Virus record (IMG/VR): IMGVR_UViG_3300021368_001336
Span: 1-24,753 of that record
Direction: 5' to 3' (one strand)
Length of the DNA: 24,753 bases
Source: a virus
The translations under genes were made by a program, and so were the position numbers. Below the pieces are notes generated by a model. It was not told the DNA's origin. It ran no database searches and saw only the letters and a list, made by a program, of their open reading frames with translations. Positions 8,004 to 20,707 of the stretch are shown here, one piece after another (position 1 is the stretch's first letter; each line of letters begins with the position of its first letter).

Positions 8004-8024
8004 GTGCCACTTTTGCAAGTGTCC
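8004..8024 (+). repeat. GTGCCACT...TGTCC element, copy 1
   Basis: Starts GTGCCACT and ends TGTCC, with an inner dyad CACTT-TTGC-AAGTG. A near copy lies at 10333-10352 at the same distance (51-52 bases) before a TATAAT box. It begins directly after the gp46 stop codon. Confidence 0.6.
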
Positions 8025-8029
8025 TAGGG

Positions 8030-8054
8030 GGAGGTCAGAAGACCTCCTTTTTTT
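8030..8054 (+). terminator. Rho-independent terminator after gp46
   Basis: Perfect 7-bp stem GGAGGTC / GACCTCC with an AGAA loop, followed by seven T (8048-8054). It ends the gp55-47-46 transcript. A -10 box begins two bases after the last T. Confidence 0.94.
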
Positions 8055-8055
8055 G

Positions 8056-8061
8056 TATAAT
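8056..8061 (+). promoter_or_regulatory. Early-type promoter -10 box (TATAAT)
   Basis: TATAAT lies 22 bases before the ATG at 8083, so the leader is short. No TTGACA is visible at the normal -35 place because that stretch is the terminator stem. The same T7-GTATAATAGGT string recurs at 10376, which argues that it is a real, reused element. Confidence 0.72.
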
Positions 8062-8082
8062 AGGTCTATACGAAACGAGAAC

Positions 8083-10146
8083 ATGACCGTCAACCACGAA
8101 ATCAAATCCCAACTCGCTAAACTGCTGGCTACGGAAGATTTGGTGGTTGAGCACAGAAAGGTAGATACTGCCTGCTTCAACGTCCACACGCGGGTCCTGA
8201 CGCTGCCTATGTGGGAGAAAGCAAGTGGGTCGGTATATGATATGCTGGTGGGTCATGAGGTGGGTCATGCCCTTTATACCCCCAACATCAACTGGATTGA
8301 AGAGCGGAAGATTTCTCCTCAGGTCGTCAATGTTGTAGAGGATGCTCGCATTGAGAAACTGATGAAGCGTCGCTATGCTGGTATCTCCAAGACCTTCTAT
8401 CGCGGATATGAAGAACTGTTTGACGATGACTTCTTCCAGATTGCTGATGAAAATCTGGATGAGATGAATCTTGCTGATCGTATCAACCTGTATTTCAAAA
8501 TCGGCAACTTTGAAGATATCCCATTTGAGACGGATATAGAGAAAGAACTGCTCAAAAAAGTCGGAGAGTGTGAGACTTTTGATGATGTTCTTGATGTAGC
8601 AGAAGAAATCTACAAGTATTGCACTGAAGAGAAAACACCAAATATTGAACACCCTGAGACTAATCCTGGTGAATCTGAAGAGACTTCAGAGCAGGGTGAT
8701 CCGCAGGTTCCTTCTGCTAGTGATTCTGCCGATGAATCCGAACCTCAAGAAGAGGGCGAAGAAGAAGCATCAGCAGATAACAAAGATGATAATGTTGAAG
8801 TCAAGACTATGGATGCTCTTGAAGAAGCACTCAAAGATTTGATTAATAACGAGGGTCTTGAAAATATCTATGTCGAACTTCCTGAAGTTGACCTTAAGAA
8901 AGTAATCGTTTCTAACGCAGAAGCACATAATCAGTGCGACCTGATGTGGAGAGATTATCAGAACAGCGATTGCTTTGATGTTATTGATAATCAATATCAA
9001 AAGCATAAAAAGTCTGCACAGAAAGAAGTTAACTACCTTGTAAAAGAGTTTGAGTGTAAGAAAGCAGCAGATTCATATGCCCGTGCTACAACCGCTAGGA
9101 CTGGTGTTCTGGATTGCTCTAAACTCCACACATACAAATACAACGAAGACCTGTTCAAAAAAGTCACTACTCTTGCTGACGGTAAGAACCACGGATTAAT
9201 TTTTATTCTTGACTGGTCAGCTTCTATGAGCAACGTTCTTGTTGATACTCTCAAGCAACTCTATAATCTGATTTGGTTCTGTAAGAAGGTTTCTATCCCC
9301 TTTGAAGTGTATGCGTTCACCAGTGAGTATCCTATTGCTAATGATAAGGGTATTCGGGAACGAGCATACACTCCAAAAGATGGTGTTGTGTGTCTGCCCG
9401 AGTGGTTCTCTCTTATGAATATCTTCAGCAGCAAAACGAACGCTAAAGAACTTGATAAGCAGATGAAGAACGTATTCCGTGTTGCCTGGGGTGTTCGTTA
9501 TTACACTACCTATCCTTGCCCCGTTGGTTGGAGCCTCTCTGGAACTCCTTTGAATGAAACTCTGGTTGTTCTTCATAAGATTATCCCTCAGTTTAAAAAG
9601 GATAATGGTATCCAAAAAGTGAATACTGTAATCCTTACGGATGGTGAAGCAGCACCTCTTAAGTTCCACCGTGAGTTTATGCGGCGGGGTCCAGAACCTT
9701 ACATTGGTGTTAACTCTATCGGTAGGAACTGCTTCCTTCGCGACCGTAAGACTGGGATTGTCCGTAGTCTGGATGGTGAGTGGTATCAGATGACGGATAA
9801 ACTATTGGAAAATCTTAAGGATAATATTCCTGGGATGAACCTTATCGGTATTCGTGTTCTTGAACCAAGAGACGCCAAGTCATTTATCCGCAGGTATTGT
9901 GGATACAAAGGAGACAAGTATGAAAAAGTAGAAACTATTTGGAAGAAAGAAAGGGCATTTACTATCAAAGATAGTGCCTATGATAGTTACTATGGAATGT
10001 CTGCTGCTGCTCTATCTAACGACACTGAGTTTGATGTGGATGACGGTGCAACCAAGGCAAAGATTAAGAGTGCTTTTGTAAAAAGTCTTCGTAACAAAAA
10101 GATGAACAAAAAGATTCTTGGTGAGTTTGTAGAACTGGTTGCATAA
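8083..10146 (+). CDS. Zinc-peptidase-motif plus VWA domain protein (CobT-like)
   Basis: 687 residues from ATG 8083; frames further upstream lie in gp46 and the terminator. Residues 1-110 hold HEVGH (H58, E59, H62), an HExxH zinc motif, followed by VVEDARIE (86-91), a likely third ligand and recognition helix. Residues 181-240 are a Ser/Glu/Pro acidic linker. From about 370 there is a von Willebrand A domain with a full MIDAS: D377-W-S379-A-S381, T488 in SGTPLNE and D520 in ILTDGEA. Cobaltochelatase CobT has the same plan of acidic linker then VWA, and the CobS-like AAA+ protein is the second gene downstream, so the two probably form an AAA+/VWA complex. The HExxH motif suggests a peptidase or metal-dependent module rather than simple cobalt chelation. 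Own promoter. Cyanophage homologues are often just called peptidase. Confidence 0.85.
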   Translation: MTVNHEIKSQLAKLLATEDLVVEHRKVDTACFNVHTRVLTLPMWEKASGSVYDMLVGHEVGHALYTPNINWIEERKISPQVVNVVEDARIEKLMKRRYAGISKTFYRGYEELFDDDFFQIADENLDEMNLADRINLYFKIGNFEDIPFETDIEKELLKKVGECETFDDVLDVAEEIYKYCTEEKTPNIEHPETNPGESEETSEQGDPQVPSASDSADESEPQEEGEEEASADNKDDNVEVKTMDALEEALKDLINNEGLENIYVELPEVDLKKVIVSNAEAHNQCDLMWRDYQNSDCFDVIDNQYQKHKKSAQKEVNYLVKEFECKKAADSYARATTARTGVLDCSKLHTYKYNEDLFKKVTTLADGKNHGLIFILDWSASMSNVLVDTLKQLYNLIWFCKKVSIPFEVYAFTSEYPIANDKGIRERAYTPKDGVVCLPEWFSLMNIFSSKTNAKELDKQMKNVFRVAWGVRYYTTYPCPVGWSLSGTPLNETLVVLHKIIPQFKKDNGIQKVNTVILTDGEAAPLKFHREFMRRGPEPYIGVNSIGRNCFLRDRKTGIVRSLDGEWYQMTDKLLENLKDNIPGMNLIGIRVLEPRDAKSFIRRYCGYKGDKYEKVETIWKKERAFTIKDSAYDSYYGMSAAALSNDTEFDVDDGATKAKIKSAFVKSLRNKKMNKKILGEFVELVA

Positions 10147-10149
10147 ATA
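10142..10149 (+). promoter_or_regulatory. Late promoter motif CATAAATA
   Basis: One base off TATAAATA, overlapping the stop codon of the peptidase/VWA gene and about 20 bases before the ATG at 10170. It probably gives the tiny next gene its own late transcript. Confidence 0.55.
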
Positions 10150-10169
10150 GTAAGAAACGCATAAGGACC

Positions 10170-10331
10170 ATGAGCAGATTTGGAGATTTGATTAGAGGAA
10201 AAGCAGAAGCCCCTGCTCCTGCTGCTCCCACACCTCCTGCACCAGTAGCAGCACCCACGCCACCAGCACCACAGGCAGTAAAACCACAAAAACCCTTAGA
10301 GGGCAAGAAAGTTCTTCGCGGCACCAAGTAG
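10170..10331 (+). CDS. Tiny Ala/Pro-rich protein
   Basis: 53 residues: MSRFGDLIRGK, then a low-complexity Ala/Pro region (about residues 13-40), then LEGKKVLRGTK. AAGGA stands just before the ATG. The N- and C-terminal ends recall a family of small late cyanophage proteins with variable Ala/Pro linkers. The basic ends and flexible middle suggest a structural or nucleic-acid-associated peptide; this is inference. A late promoter is upstream and a terminator follows, making it a single-gene late unit between two early-type genes. Confidence 0.72.
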   Translation: MSRFGDLIRGKAEAPAPAAPTPPAPVAAPTPPAPQAVKPQKPLEGKKVLRGTK

Positions 10332-10332
10332 T

Positions 10333-10352
10333 GTGCCACTGACAAACTGTCC
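10333..10352 (+). repeat. GTGCCACT...TGTCC element, copy 2
   Basis: Begins GTGCCACT and ends CTGTCC, like the element at 8004-8024, with an inner dyad GACA-AAC-TGTC. It starts just after a stop codon and precedes a terminator and a -10 box in the same order and spacing. Confidence 0.6.
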
Positions 10353-10355
10353 ATT

Positions 10356-10382
10356 AGGGGGTCCAAAAGACCCTCTTTTTTT
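10356..10382 (+). terminator. Rho-independent terminator before cobS-like gene
   Basis: Stem AGGGGGTC / GACCCTCT (one G-T pair) with a CAAAA loop and a T run at 10376-10382. It closes the preceding unit. The -10 box starts two bases later. Confidence 0.9.
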
Positions 10383-10383
10383 G

Positions 10384-10389
10384 TATAAT
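10384..10389 (+). promoter_or_regulatory. Early-type promoter -10 box (TATAAT)
   Basis: The string T7-GTATAATAGGT is identical to that at 8048-8065. The box lies 24 bases before the cobS-like ATG. No -35 consensus is visible in the terminator stem. Confidence 0.72.
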
Positions 10390-10412
10390 AGGTGTATTGA
10401 AGCACACAACAC

Positions 10413-11510
10413 ATGACTATTCCAATTAACGAAATCCGATCTTCTCTCCAAGAAACTTACGGTGAATCCGTAACTAGTGCCGATATTCGTGCATGGTGTG
10501 CTATGAATAGTGCTAACTACCAAAGTATCACCCGTCGCCTTGAGAAAGAAGGTTGCAAGTCTGGTCGTGGTAAGTGGAACCTGCAAGTAACTACAGAAAC
10601 AGTTCAGGATTTGGAAGTATCCTATAATGCTCCTGCAGCGATGCCTGCTATTGAACAAAACCTTATCCCAGTAAAAGATGATACCTTCGTCAAGTTTGGC
10701 AACTTCGGTGATATTAAAAAAGTTATTCAGTCCGGTGTATTCTATCCAACGTTCATTACAGGACTGTCCGGTAACGGAAAGACTTTCTCAGTTGAGCAAG
10801 CGTGTGCGCAACTGGGTCGGGAACTTATCCGTGTAAACATTACTATCGAAACTGATGAAGATGATCTTATCGGCGGTTTCCGTCTTATTGATGGCAACAC
10901 CGTCTGGCACAATGGACCAGTCATTGAAGCACTCGAACGAGGAGCTGTCCTGCTCCTTGATGAGATCGACCTTGCCAGTAATAAAATTCTCTGTCTCCAG
11001 TCAGTACTTGAAGGAAATGGAGTCTTCCTTAAAAAAATTGGAAAGTTCGTCCGCCCCAGTGCAGGTTTCAACGTCATCGCAACCGCAAACACTAAAGGTA
11101 AAGGTTCAGATGATGGACGATTTATTGGAACTAACGTGCTCAACGAAGCCTTCCTTGAACGATTCCCAGTAACCTTTGAACAGGAATATCCCACCCCTGC
11201 TCAAGAGACTAAAATCCTGGAGAGTGTTTGCCGTGACATGAAGGTAGTTGCTCCTGACTTCTGTAAGCGTCTGGTAGACTGGGCAGACATTATCCGCAAG
11301 ACCTTCTATGACGGTGGTATTGAAGAAATCATTAGCACCCGTCGTCTGGTCCACATTATCCGTGCCTATCGTATCTTTGCAGATAAGGCAAAGGCAATCC
11401 AAGTCTGTGTAAATCGTTTTGATGATGAAACTAAGCAGGCGTTCTTGGAACTCTATGATAAAGTTGATGCAGATTTCCAGATGCCCGTTGACGGGGAGGA
11501 GCAATCCTGA
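10413..11510 (+). CDS. cobS: CobS/MoxR-like AAA+ ATPase
   Basis: 365 residues. An N-terminal helical region (1-60, with RRLEKEGCKSGRGKW like a winged helix) precedes the AAA+ core: Walker A GLSGNGKT 117-124, Walker B LLLDEID 180-186, sensor-1 strand NVIATANT, and a likely arginine finger in LNEAFLERF. The layout and the ATANT..G....G sequence match CobS, the ATPase of aerobic cobaltochelatase, and the gene is usually called cobS in cyanophages. MoxR-type ATPases share this core and work with VWA partners, and one is encoded just upstream. So cobalamin synthesis is only one possibility; a chaperone or protease-loading role is equally open. Own promoter and terminator-insulated start. Confidence 0.87.
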   Translation: MTIPINEIRSSLQETYGESVTSADIRAWCAMNSANYQSITRRLEKEGCKSGRGKWNLQVTTETVQDLEVSYNAPAAMPAIEQNLIPVKDDTFVKFGNFGDIKKVIQSGVFYPTFITGLSGNGKTFSVEQACAQLGRELIRVNITIETDEDDLIGGFRLIDGNTVWHNGPVIEALERGAVLLLDEIDLASNKILCLQSVLEGNGVFLKKIGKFVRPSAGFNVIATANTKGKGSDDGRFIGTNVLNEAFLERFPVTFEQEYPTPAQETKILESVCRDMKVVAPDFCKRLVDWADIIRKTFYDGGIEEIISTRRLVHIIRAYRIFADKAKAIQVCVNRFDDETKQAFLELYDKVDADFQMPVDGEEQS

Positions 11511-18097: not shown

Positions 18098-20707
18098 GTG
18101 AAGAGAAATAACTTTAATCGAGCGATAAGGCATCTTAAGAAAGATCTGACGGAATCCCCCACAAATAGTACGAGTAGGGTTTATGCTAATAACCCTGCTG
18201 GATTCCGTTTGGGTAAAATGGATCCAGAAAGAGTTTTCTATCCAGATATTGATGGAAATTTTCCAACAGGTATTCCTGGAAAAGCGGGAGATGAAATATA
18301 TAAGAGACCTCGTGGTTATTGGGATGAGGGTCCAGGAACAGTTGCTGCAACAGATTGGGATATTAAATATGATTCCGATTATACTTACGAAGCGCAATCA
18401 GAAAATCCTAGAGAAACCGAGACACTGATTGATCCAGAAACTGGATATGTAAAATCAGAACTTCCACCAGGAACTAGAAGTTTTATTTTAGGTCCAATTG
18501 TTGATTCATATGTCCATGTACATGGATATGACAATATAACAAGAGTTGGATATATTCAAAAGGATACAAGAGAATTTGTTCTACTTGGTTATGTTGAAGG
18601 ATTGTGGGGTGATGATGATAATGGAAATCCCATTCTCCAAGATGGATTTGGTAGTGCTAGTGGATGGAGAGTTTGGGATGGACAAGAAAGTTCTTTCACT
18701 TCAGTAAATAGTAATTTTACTTTTGAACATCTTCAGTGGTTTCATAATAAACTAAAGTCGGCAAGATATATTGCAAATGTTTCATTTTTCCTTTCTGGTG
18801 GATTAGGTTGTGTTCTGGGTCATGGTGGTCCTCGCCAACCACCAGGTTCAACTCAAGGAAATACTCCAGGCGGCGGTGGTCCTCCAGGAAGCAGTCCTCC
18901 AAATTGGCCTAAAAATATGGGAGGAGATGATCCACCTCCTAATGCACCTCCTTATGGTGGACCACCTAATCAAAGTCCACCACCAAATGAGGGTGAACCT
19001 CAGCAACCTCCTGGTACTGATGATCCCCCAACACCACCTTATCCTAAACCTCCTAGGAAGAGGAGGAAGCCTGGTGAAAAGGGTGGTGATCCTGGTGGTG
19101 ATAGTGATTCAACAAAAACTAAAACCGATTCGGAAGAGGATTGGGATACTGGTGGAGAGGAGGATGATTGGGATCCTGGCGATCAGGATGGAAATACCCC
19201 GCCAGAAGAATCATTATTTAATGATGCAAAAAAATGGGCAAAAGATTTGATAGGTAAAGCTATTGATGCCCTTCCAAAGAATGAACTTGGTATAGCTGGA
19301 AAAGTATTTGGCGACTATCTTACGGATAGGGGACCAAAAGTAATTGATAACAAATATCTAGGACAAGATTATGTTGATAATTATGTAAGGAATGCTAATC
19401 TTGTGTCTAGATCTGATCGAGAGTATGTTTTTGCTGGTGGAGATAATGTAATTGCTACTAGTAGTCCACTAACATATAATCCCAAGACGGGGATGGTTGA
19501 TATTCCCTTCAATTATGACTTTAAAACTAATGCACAAGAATTCCCTGGAGGGGGAATGGATACAGTTCGTAGAGCAATTTACGATAGAATAGGACCATAT
19601 GCTGGTGATAGTAGAATTAATGTTCTAGGTTGGGGATTACCTATGCCTACATTTGCATGGTCGATTGGTGCAGCAAAAGCATTGGGTGGTGCAACTCCTA
19701 AAAAAGGACTCGTCAGTATGTCTTTTGATAAACTGGCAGAATTAAATCCCGATGCAGCAAACAAACTCAATCCTGGATATAACTTTAAAGATCCACCACA
19801 GAAAACTCCCAAACCTACTAAACCAGGAAAGATTGAAAAGAATGCTACAACTAAATCTGACTTTATGAAAAAAATGTCTAGCGATCATGTTGATCGTGAG
19901 AATGCAAAGAGGGGATTTGGTGAATCTAGAACTGTATCCGTAGAGCAACGCAGAAAAATTCTGAGAGAGGTCAAGCAACCTTATGTTATGCCTGAGATTA
20001 AGAAACAGAAGTACAAACCAAACTTTAAAGGTAAGTACAAGGCACAAAATACTCCTGATGTAACTAAGTCAAAGCAGTCTGATGATATGGTCAGAGCAAA
20101 GAATGCTGCTGGTCAAACTTGGAGAACCAAAGACAAGTATTGGGGTGGTTATGAGAGCACTGAGAGGATGAATGTTATTAGTGATAGAGTTGGTCATGGT
20201 GAGATTGCTTTTGATATGATTGTAAAGGCAAATTCAAAGGACTTCCAAAAAATTACGGAACGCTTTAAAACTAATGTAAAGGATAGGGAACTCCAAGAAC
20301 ATTTGAATACTCTTGCTCATGAAAAGGCAATGAGAGAAATGGATGCTTCATATGTAAGTCCTTTCCGTCAAAAGAAAGTGGTACAAGAACAGGAGACTAT
20401 CGAAGCAGATAGAGATCCTTTGTTTGCAAAGGTTGCTAGGAAACTGAAAACTGAGATTGATTATTCAGATAAACCATCTCCTAACGGTTTCCCAGAAGAA
20501 CCACCACCAGCATTAGATCCTGTAACTGGATTCCATCCAGAGTATGGTAAACAGTTTGCTCGTTATACTAAGTTAGATCCTGAGAGTGCTGATGCAATGC
20601 CTTCTACAGGAGATCCTGACATTGATGCAACGGTTGCTTCTCAGAAAACTTCATCTTTGAAAACTGTAAGATCAGTTGTAAAAAAGAAGGGTAAACCGAA
20701 CTCCTGA
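18098..20707 (+). CDS. Large Pro/Gly-rich protein, probable virion structural protein
   Basis: 869 residues from GTG 18098 (MKRNNFNRAIRHLKK). Residues 1-235 form a beta-rich domain (YVHVHGYDNITRVGYI, FVLLGYVEGLWG). About 240-360 is a low-complexity Pro/Gly linker with PKPPRKRRKPGE and an acidic Asp/Trp stretch. About 370-580 is a second domain (MVDIPFNYDFKTNAQEFPGG). The rest is Lys-rich and extended. No enzyme motif or membrane span. An exact late promoter lies upstream, so it is likely made late and built into the virion. Arginine codons are mostly AGA here against CGT/CGC in the nearby replication genes, a sign of separate origin or selection. The start has no ribosome site; later ATGs are possible. 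Confidence 0.72.
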   Translation: MKRNNFNRAIRHLKKDLTESPTNSTSRVYANNPAGFRLGKMDPERVFYPDIDGNFPTGIPGKAGDEIYKRPRGYWDEGPGTVAATDWDIKYDSDYTYEAQSENPRETETLIDPETGYVKSELPPGTRSFILGPIVDSYVHVHGYDNITRVGYIQKDTREFVLLGYVEGLWGDDDNGNPILQDGFGSASGWRVWDGQESSFTSVNSNFTFEHLQWFHNKLKSARYIANVSFFLSGGLGCVLGHGGPRQPPGSTQGNTPGGGGPPGSSPPNWPKNMGGDDPPPNAPPYGGPPNQSPPPNEGEPQQPPGTDDPPTPPYPKPPRKRRKPGEKGGDPGGDSDSTKTKTDSEEDWDTGGEEDDWDPGDQDGNTPPEESLFNDAKKWAKDLIGKAIDALPKNELGIAGKVFGDYLTDRGPKVIDNKYLGQDYVDNYVRNANLVSRSDREYVFAGGDNVIATSSPLTYNPKTGMVDIPFNYDFKTNAQEFPGGGMDTVRRAIYDRIGPYAGDSRINVLGWGLPMPTFAWSIGAAKALGGATPKKGLVSMSFDKLAELNPDAANKLNPGYNFKDPPQKTPKPTKPGKIEKNATTKSDFMKKMSSDHVDRENAKRGFGESRTVSVEQRRKILREVKQPYVMPEIKKQKYKPNFKGKYKAQNTPDVTKSKQSDDMVRAKNAAGQTWRTKDKYWGGYESTERMNVISDRVGHGEIAFDMIVKANSKDFQKITERFKTNVKDRELQEHLNTLAHEKAMREMDASYVSPFRQKKVVQEQETIEADRDPLFAKVARKLKTEIDYSDKPSPNGFPEEPPPALDPVTGFHPEYGKQFARYTKLDPESADAMPSTGDPDIDATVASQKTSSLKTVRSVVKKKGKPNS

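Follow-up and report, generated by a model that had tools for sequence, protein, structure and literature searches.

Several of the closest described systems to the locus reported here combine an AAA+ ATPase with a VWA-domain protein. In the cobaltochelatase CobNST (PDB 9uka, 9ujv), CobT has the order N-domain, acidic linker and VWA domain, and its partner CobS is a MoxR-branch AAA+ protein. NorQ/NorD, which serves iron insertion into cNOR (PDB 9qh6, 9qhd), shares the N-domain-linker-VWA plan, and the NorQD structures of 2026 show a VWA finger in the AAA+ pore, an N-domain that is fixed to the ring, and a rotation, driven by ATP, that stretches the linker (PMC13036017); that paper mentions no HExxH. 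A phage version has been published as viral cobST: in the available part of that paper, the cyanophage pair is called core, its label 'peptidase' is called a mis-annotation and a hijacking of host CobN is proposed (Liu et al. 2021, PMC8651126). We analysed the same gene pair in IMG/VR record IMGVR_UViG_3300021368_001336, a T4-like cyanophage fragment according to the virus record, of which the whole stretch of 24,753 nucleotides is called the window below. The pair and its resemblance to CobST are thus already known and not special to the window; instead of the CobN-hijack reading, we propose a zinc-site reading. On balance, and with moderate confidence, we regard the pair as a MoxR-type AAA+/VWA machine with a zincin domain, which would carry out ATP-driven protein remodelling or proteolysis in phage DNA metabolism.

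The pair and its parts lie as follows.

8083 to 10146, + strand: gene of the HExxH/VWA protein (CobT-like; PHROG 459, 'peptidase'), ATG at 8083, stop at 10146, 687 residues.
8083 to 8640, + strand: N-terminal zincin-like domain, residues 1-186, from the AlphaFold2 model, fold matches and invariance.
8638 to 8802, + strand: acidic, low-confidence (disordered) linker, about residues 186-240, from model confidence and composition.
8803 to 9096, + strand: helical hairpin, residues 241-338, from the AlphaFold2 model; partly within the alignments to the NorD and MDN1 VWA regions.
9181 to 10143, + strand: VWA domain with MIDAS residues D377, S379, S381, T488 and D520, from motif, model and fold matches.
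10413 to 11510, + strand: gene of the AAA+ ATPase of the CobS/MoxR/midasin branch (PHROG 249, 'porphyrin biosynthesis'), 365 residues.

An initial annotation of the window had described a 687-residue protein with HExxH at 58-62, an acidic linker and a complete MIDAS, next to an AAA+ protein with intact Walker A and B motifs, and both descriptions were borne out. The VWA protein carries HEVGH at 58-62, NVVED at 83-87, DWSAS at 377-381, T488 and D520, and Asp and Glu make up 34% of residues 186-255. In 103 full-length aligned sequences, with identity down to 13%, H58, E59, H62, E86, D87, D377, S379, S381 and D520 are invariant. The AAA+ protein has a Walker A motif (GLSGNGKT at 117), a Walker B motif (VLLLDE, to D183-E184), sensor 1 (ATAN at 223) and the conserved arginines R250 and R310-R311; G117, G120, G122, K123, D183, E184, R250, R310 and R311 are invariant in 61 sequences.

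We then considered how far the putative zinc site exceeds chance. When the VWA protein was shuffled, HExxH arose in 1.9% of the shuffles and HExxH followed by NxxED in 0.035%, so that HExxH by itself is unremarkable, whereas its combination with NxxED is remarkable, and conservation decides. H58, E59, H62, E86 and D87 are invariant across 110 aligned N-domains. HExxH is found in 207/212 loci, the other five ending before the motif, and NxxED accompanies it in all 207 N-terminally complete phage loci. Beyond cyanophages, the site is kept in SSU5, in Rhizobium phage X66 and in plasmids of V. vulnificus and X. citri, and partly in ICP2 and Kvothe. In those two plasmids, genes for an AAA+ protein, DUF3150, an HExxH/VWA protein and toprim stand in a row (L218, 2722-9739, and L220, 1694-8082, respectively), a three-part relative of the phage pair.

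The predicted structure is consistent with a zincin. AlphaFold2 modelled the whole VWA protein with a mean predicted local distance difference test score (pLDDT) of 83.6; the N-domain and the VWA domain were confident, and pLDDT fell below 50 at residues 186-231. A fold search with the whole model was uninformative on the N-domain. Modelled separately, this domain reached a pLDDT of 90.0 and a predicted template modelling score of 0.86, with HExxH on helix 49-65 and NVVED, including the invariant E86 and D87, on helix 79-97. Its structural matches in VIA-align included ArdC (Z 7.3), ZMPSTE24 (6.5), abylysin (6.1), selecase (5.7), BlaR1 (5.6), IrrE/PprI (5.2) and Wss1 (5.0), and also M61 and CapP, that is, HExxH zinc metallopeptidases almost throughout, at moderate scores. 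Evidence for the zincin fold is therefore the consistency of the match list, as no single match is decisive. A predicted structure lacking a zinc-type site, which the initial annotation had named as a possible objection, thus did not arise. The DNA-metabolism zincins ArdC, IrrE/PprI and Wss1 resemble the N-domain moderately, in the predicted fold and the HExxH active-site helix; to our knowledge, they have neither a fused VWA domain nor a dedicated MoxR partner. The published view of 'peptidase' as a mere annotation error finds no support in the zinc motif, which is conserved, or in the fold matches. A match of N-domain profile A3 to AcrIIA26 (PDB 9zq6, E 0.011), around NxxED (window 8083-8640), was set aside as probably due to chance, as were weaker PDB matches.

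The other parts resemble MoxR-type machines. The best structural matches of the VWA part were the MIDAS domain of MDN1/Rea1 (Z 15.6) and NorD (Z 15.4), and the MIDAS residues are present in 83/83 cases. In family searches, the AAA+ protein matched AAA_5 (1.7e-17) and CbbQ_C (4.9e-6), and in sequence it matched midasin (E about 1e-51 summed over repeats), CobS (E 2e-20), NorQ and CbbQ. Midasin (Mdn1/Rea1) is a single giant eukaryotic ribosome-assembly protein, and we know of no zincin in it. The pair thus shows the features of a MoxR-type pair, with intact Walker A, Walker B, sensor 1 and arginine finger, a linked VWA gene with a full MIDAS and a VWA fold like that of NorD and midasin. Queried singly, the VWA protein fell in no confident Pfam or NCBIfam family, and a phmmer search of the single protein against the PDB gave no match; a match came with the family profile. 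In the AAA+ protein, residues 1-60 looked by eye like a DNA-binding helix-turn-helix, but a PDB sequence search lent this no support.

The two genes travel together. Relatives of the VWA protein were found in 463 phage records, 461 of them covering at least 80% of its length, and relatives of the AAA+ protein in 469 at this coverage. Counted by organism, the two genes gave equal numbers (Synechococcus 365, Cyanophage 61, Prochlorococcus 24). In IMG/VR, the AAA+ gene lies downstream of the VWA gene in 65/66 loci with room for it. An AAA+ gene without its VWA neighbour, which the initial annotation had raised as a possible objection, is therefore not the rule, and the pair, far from rare, belongs to the core genes of T4-like cyanophages. 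Its members are usually annotated as 'peptidase' and as 'cobS/porphyrin biosynthesis'. A genome-wide profile search with a narrower alignment found at least 7 contigs, all of those listed being from metagenome-assembled genomes or bins and likely binned phage, and does not prove that the pair is absent from chromosomes. Relatives of the Rhizobium phage protein occur in 229 Escherichia plasmid records.

We next compared the VWA protein with CobT. The phage family profile found PDB CobT (9uka) with an E-value of 2.8e-47 over the linker and VWA domain. The window protein scored 11.8 against a cut-off of 26.1 for the CobT family PF06213, and PF11775 was not reported for it; its Rhizobium phage relative meets PF11775 and acts as a bridge, matching CobT_C at 8.7e-35 while keeping HExxH. 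In alphaproteobacterial cellular CobT genes, HExxH is absent from the CobT frame, and the lone HExxH flag in this set (L253) was a wrong-frame artefact. HHalign joined the broader phage N-domain profile to the CobT N-domain with 92% probability over 112 columns, in which the phage DHExxH faces DAxALR of CobT and xVED faces AVEQ; this link requires the broader profile, as the cyanophage-only N-domain gave no significant match (4.6%, 37 columns). The HExxH N-domain thus belongs to the CobT plan, and cellular CobT has this domain minus the zinc site. The initial annotation had taken the HExxH module as a departure from the classical CobT plan, and this contrast was wrong; its wider picture still stands, in which the phage encodes an AAA+/VWA machine that has a plausible zinc site and is no obvious cobalamin enzyme. 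Since two phage lineages have also lost the site, loss in CobT would be a simpler reading than gain in mobile elements. An N-domain shared with CobT, with its zinc site intact in phage forms and erased in CobT, appears to be new: the open-access papers that our search covered do not discuss the intact shared site and its absence from CobT, and neither does the available part of PMC8651126. The zincin-type matches of the separately modelled N-domain also appear new, as do the results below on CobN, ribonucleotide reductase and E. coli.

These parts suggest how such a machine might work. We infer one machine made from two genes, in which the AAA+ protein would most likely form a MoxR-type ring, and the VWA domain and helical hairpin would dock onto it as NorD does onto NorQ. 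The N-terminal zincin domain, with its intact HExxH...E site presumably holding zinc, would be tethered through the flexible acidic linker. ATP hydrolysis may then rotate the VWA part or draw on it, so that a bound protein reaches the zincin domain and would be remodelled or cleaved by it. Because the same parts are present, the phage machine could work like NorQD, with the zincin replacing an inert N-domain.

The genes around the pair bear on its possible targets. In the window, the pair follows genes for a tail-tube protein, UvsY, UvsW, a MauE-like protein, the late sigma factor gp55, gp47 and gp46, and is followed by an unknown gene, gp45, gp44, Dam, gp62, an endonuclease V-like protein, an unknown protein of 869 residues, Hsp20 and gp43; it thus lies between gp46 and gp45, inside the replication/recombination module. 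The core order around it is the same in P-SSM2, Syn9, S-SRM01 and Ochrobactrum phage OC, whose host is an alphaproteobacterium. In S-CREM2, the pair lies elsewhere in the genome yet still together, near recombinase and primase genes. DNA-metabolism genes adjoin the pair in most unrelated elements examined, such as ligase and polymerase in SSU5, primase, helicase and polymerase in ICP2, primase, ligase and dnaE in nickie, and polymerase III alpha in X66 and the A. baumannii element. Because of this gene context, the targets are probably proteins of replication and recombination or of DNA-bound complexes, and not corrin rings. A bolder version, by analogy with SPRTN and Wss1-p97/Cdc48, would make the pair an ATP-driven zinc protease that removes or processes DNA-bound proteins while the phage replicates and recombines its DNA, and cellular CobST a derived branch with a dead zinc site, whose motor was taken over for metal insertion; we consider this version unlikely.

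Several observations weigh against a zincin machine in DNA metabolism. The N-domain reached a Foldseek E-value of 0.035 at best, and its Z scores of at most 7.3 lie below 8, where a match may mean a common arrangement. The replication context is guilt by association, as early phage genes are often located there. Cyanobacterial hosts do have CobN, which was present in our S. elongatus control, so that a cobalamin role there is possible. Finally, two relatives have lost the zinc site, Pseudomonas phage nickie (SEISK) and the Acinetobacter baumannii element (QEVAK), which implies that the machine can work without it. The two loci (L216, 4983-7067, and L219, 5001-6923), with HExxH decayed and the VWA and AAA+ parts retained, offer natural controls for what the site does. 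The losses would suit a NorQD-like chaperone that only remodels proteins or inserts metal; its zinc site would have a structural role or bind the substrate, and no peptide bond would be cleaved. The closest mechanistic relatives (NorQD, CbbQO, CobST and midasin) are likewise non-proteases. However, the catalytic residue Glu59 is no less invariant than the ligands, a constraint that zinc with a purely structural role would not impose, and we consider a pure chaperone unlikely.

The published alternative is a viral cobaltochelatase, in which CobS/CobT-like subunits from the phage would take the place of ChlI/ChlD on the host's CobN, so that infected cells make more cobalamin. The homology to CobT and CobS described above is real, and cyanobacteria have CobN but no cobS or cobT (PMC9227772). 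However, the AAA+ protein scores 71.3 on the CobS equivalog TIGR01650, far below the cut-off of 558.55, the CobT models are under their cut-off or absent, and, unlike CobT, the phage form retains the zinc site. CobN is encoded in 0/11 complete phage and plasmid elements with the pair, although in cyanobacteria the host could supply it. Class I, B12-independent ribonucleotide reductase is encoded in 9/11 of these elements and a B12-dependent one above cut-off in 0/11; the rationale that B12 would feed a phage reductase is therefore weak. Relatives also occur in E. coli, where our control had neither CobN nor CobT. Among 115 alphaproteobacterial genomes, 85 had CobT, 47 CobN and 45 both, with CobT only in 40 (Caulobacter vibrioides, for instance, had CobT and no CobN match) and CobN only in two; incomplete assemblies blur these counts, but the asymmetry is large. 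As 40/85 CobT genomes lack CobN against 2/47 in the reverse direction, cellular CobST may often serve something other than cobalt insertion. Taken together, a cobaltochelatase role is improbable.

A host take-over or counter-defence protease, acting on host targets such as defence or stress regulators and not on phage DNA-bound proteins, would fit a pair that is widespread in phages and plasmids and whose structural neighbours include the antirestriction protein ArdC, IrrE/PprI and CapP, all linked to DNA damage or defence, but in T4-like cyanophages the pair keeps a constant place within the core replication module, not in variable regions, and neither window protein has a PADLOC match (these models cover defence, not counter-defence), which makes this alternative very unlikely. 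On the same PADLOC result, we discarded the idea that the pair belongs to a known defence system.

Surveys list viral cobS among the auxiliary metabolic genes for B12, and PHROGs files it likewise. If the pair instead remodels or cleaves proteins, an ecological claim on cyanophages that has been widely repeated would be wrong, and a core pair of very abundant marine viruses would gain a testable function, in which the zinc site, the catalytic glutamate and the Walker B residue can be mutated separately. CobT would be recast as a probable pseudo-metallopeptidase, linking metal chelatases to the protein machines of mobile elements.

Three further features accompany the two genes.

8026 to 8062, + strand: terminator hairpin, T-run (hairpin and T-run 8026-8054) and TATAAT -10-like element upstream of the VWA gene.
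10170 to 10331, + strand: Pro/Ala-rich open reading frame of 53 residues, starting MSRFGDL, between the VWA and AAA+ genes.
10356 to 10390, + strand: terminator hairpin, T-run (hairpin and T-run 10356-10382) and TATAAT -10-like element upstream of the AAA+ gene.

The initial annotation had placed the same control unit before each gene. Both units are present, and an identical TTTTTTTGTATAATA continues from both T-runs (8048-8062 and 10376-10390), with 21 nucleotides from the end of TATAAT to the ATG of the VWA gene and 23 to that of the AAA+ gene; the number of such patterns in the window was matched by no shuffle. The unit is, however, not specific to the pair. In 80 related loci (696 kb), the coding strand has 200 occurrences of a strict T-run/TATAAT pattern and the opposite strand two; the pattern stands upstream of cobS in 58/71 loci and of the VWA gene in 24/74. 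As judged from these counts, the hairpin, T-run and TATAAT form a general transcription-unit boundary in these phages with a putative promoter, which suggests separate transcription units and not a private regulon; a special two-gene regulon marked by the twin unit was therefore dropped.

Relatives of the 53-residue open reading frame are longer and end in a helical SAP/HeH-like segment (19/173 loci), a tail that the window copy does not have. The 869-residue open reading frame at 18098-20707, between the endonuclease V-like gene and Hsp20, is without a PHROG match. A third hairpin with a T-run, at 169-200 of the window, ends in TTTGTCTAAAT and not in TATAAT, and may be a late-type variant of the unit boundary.

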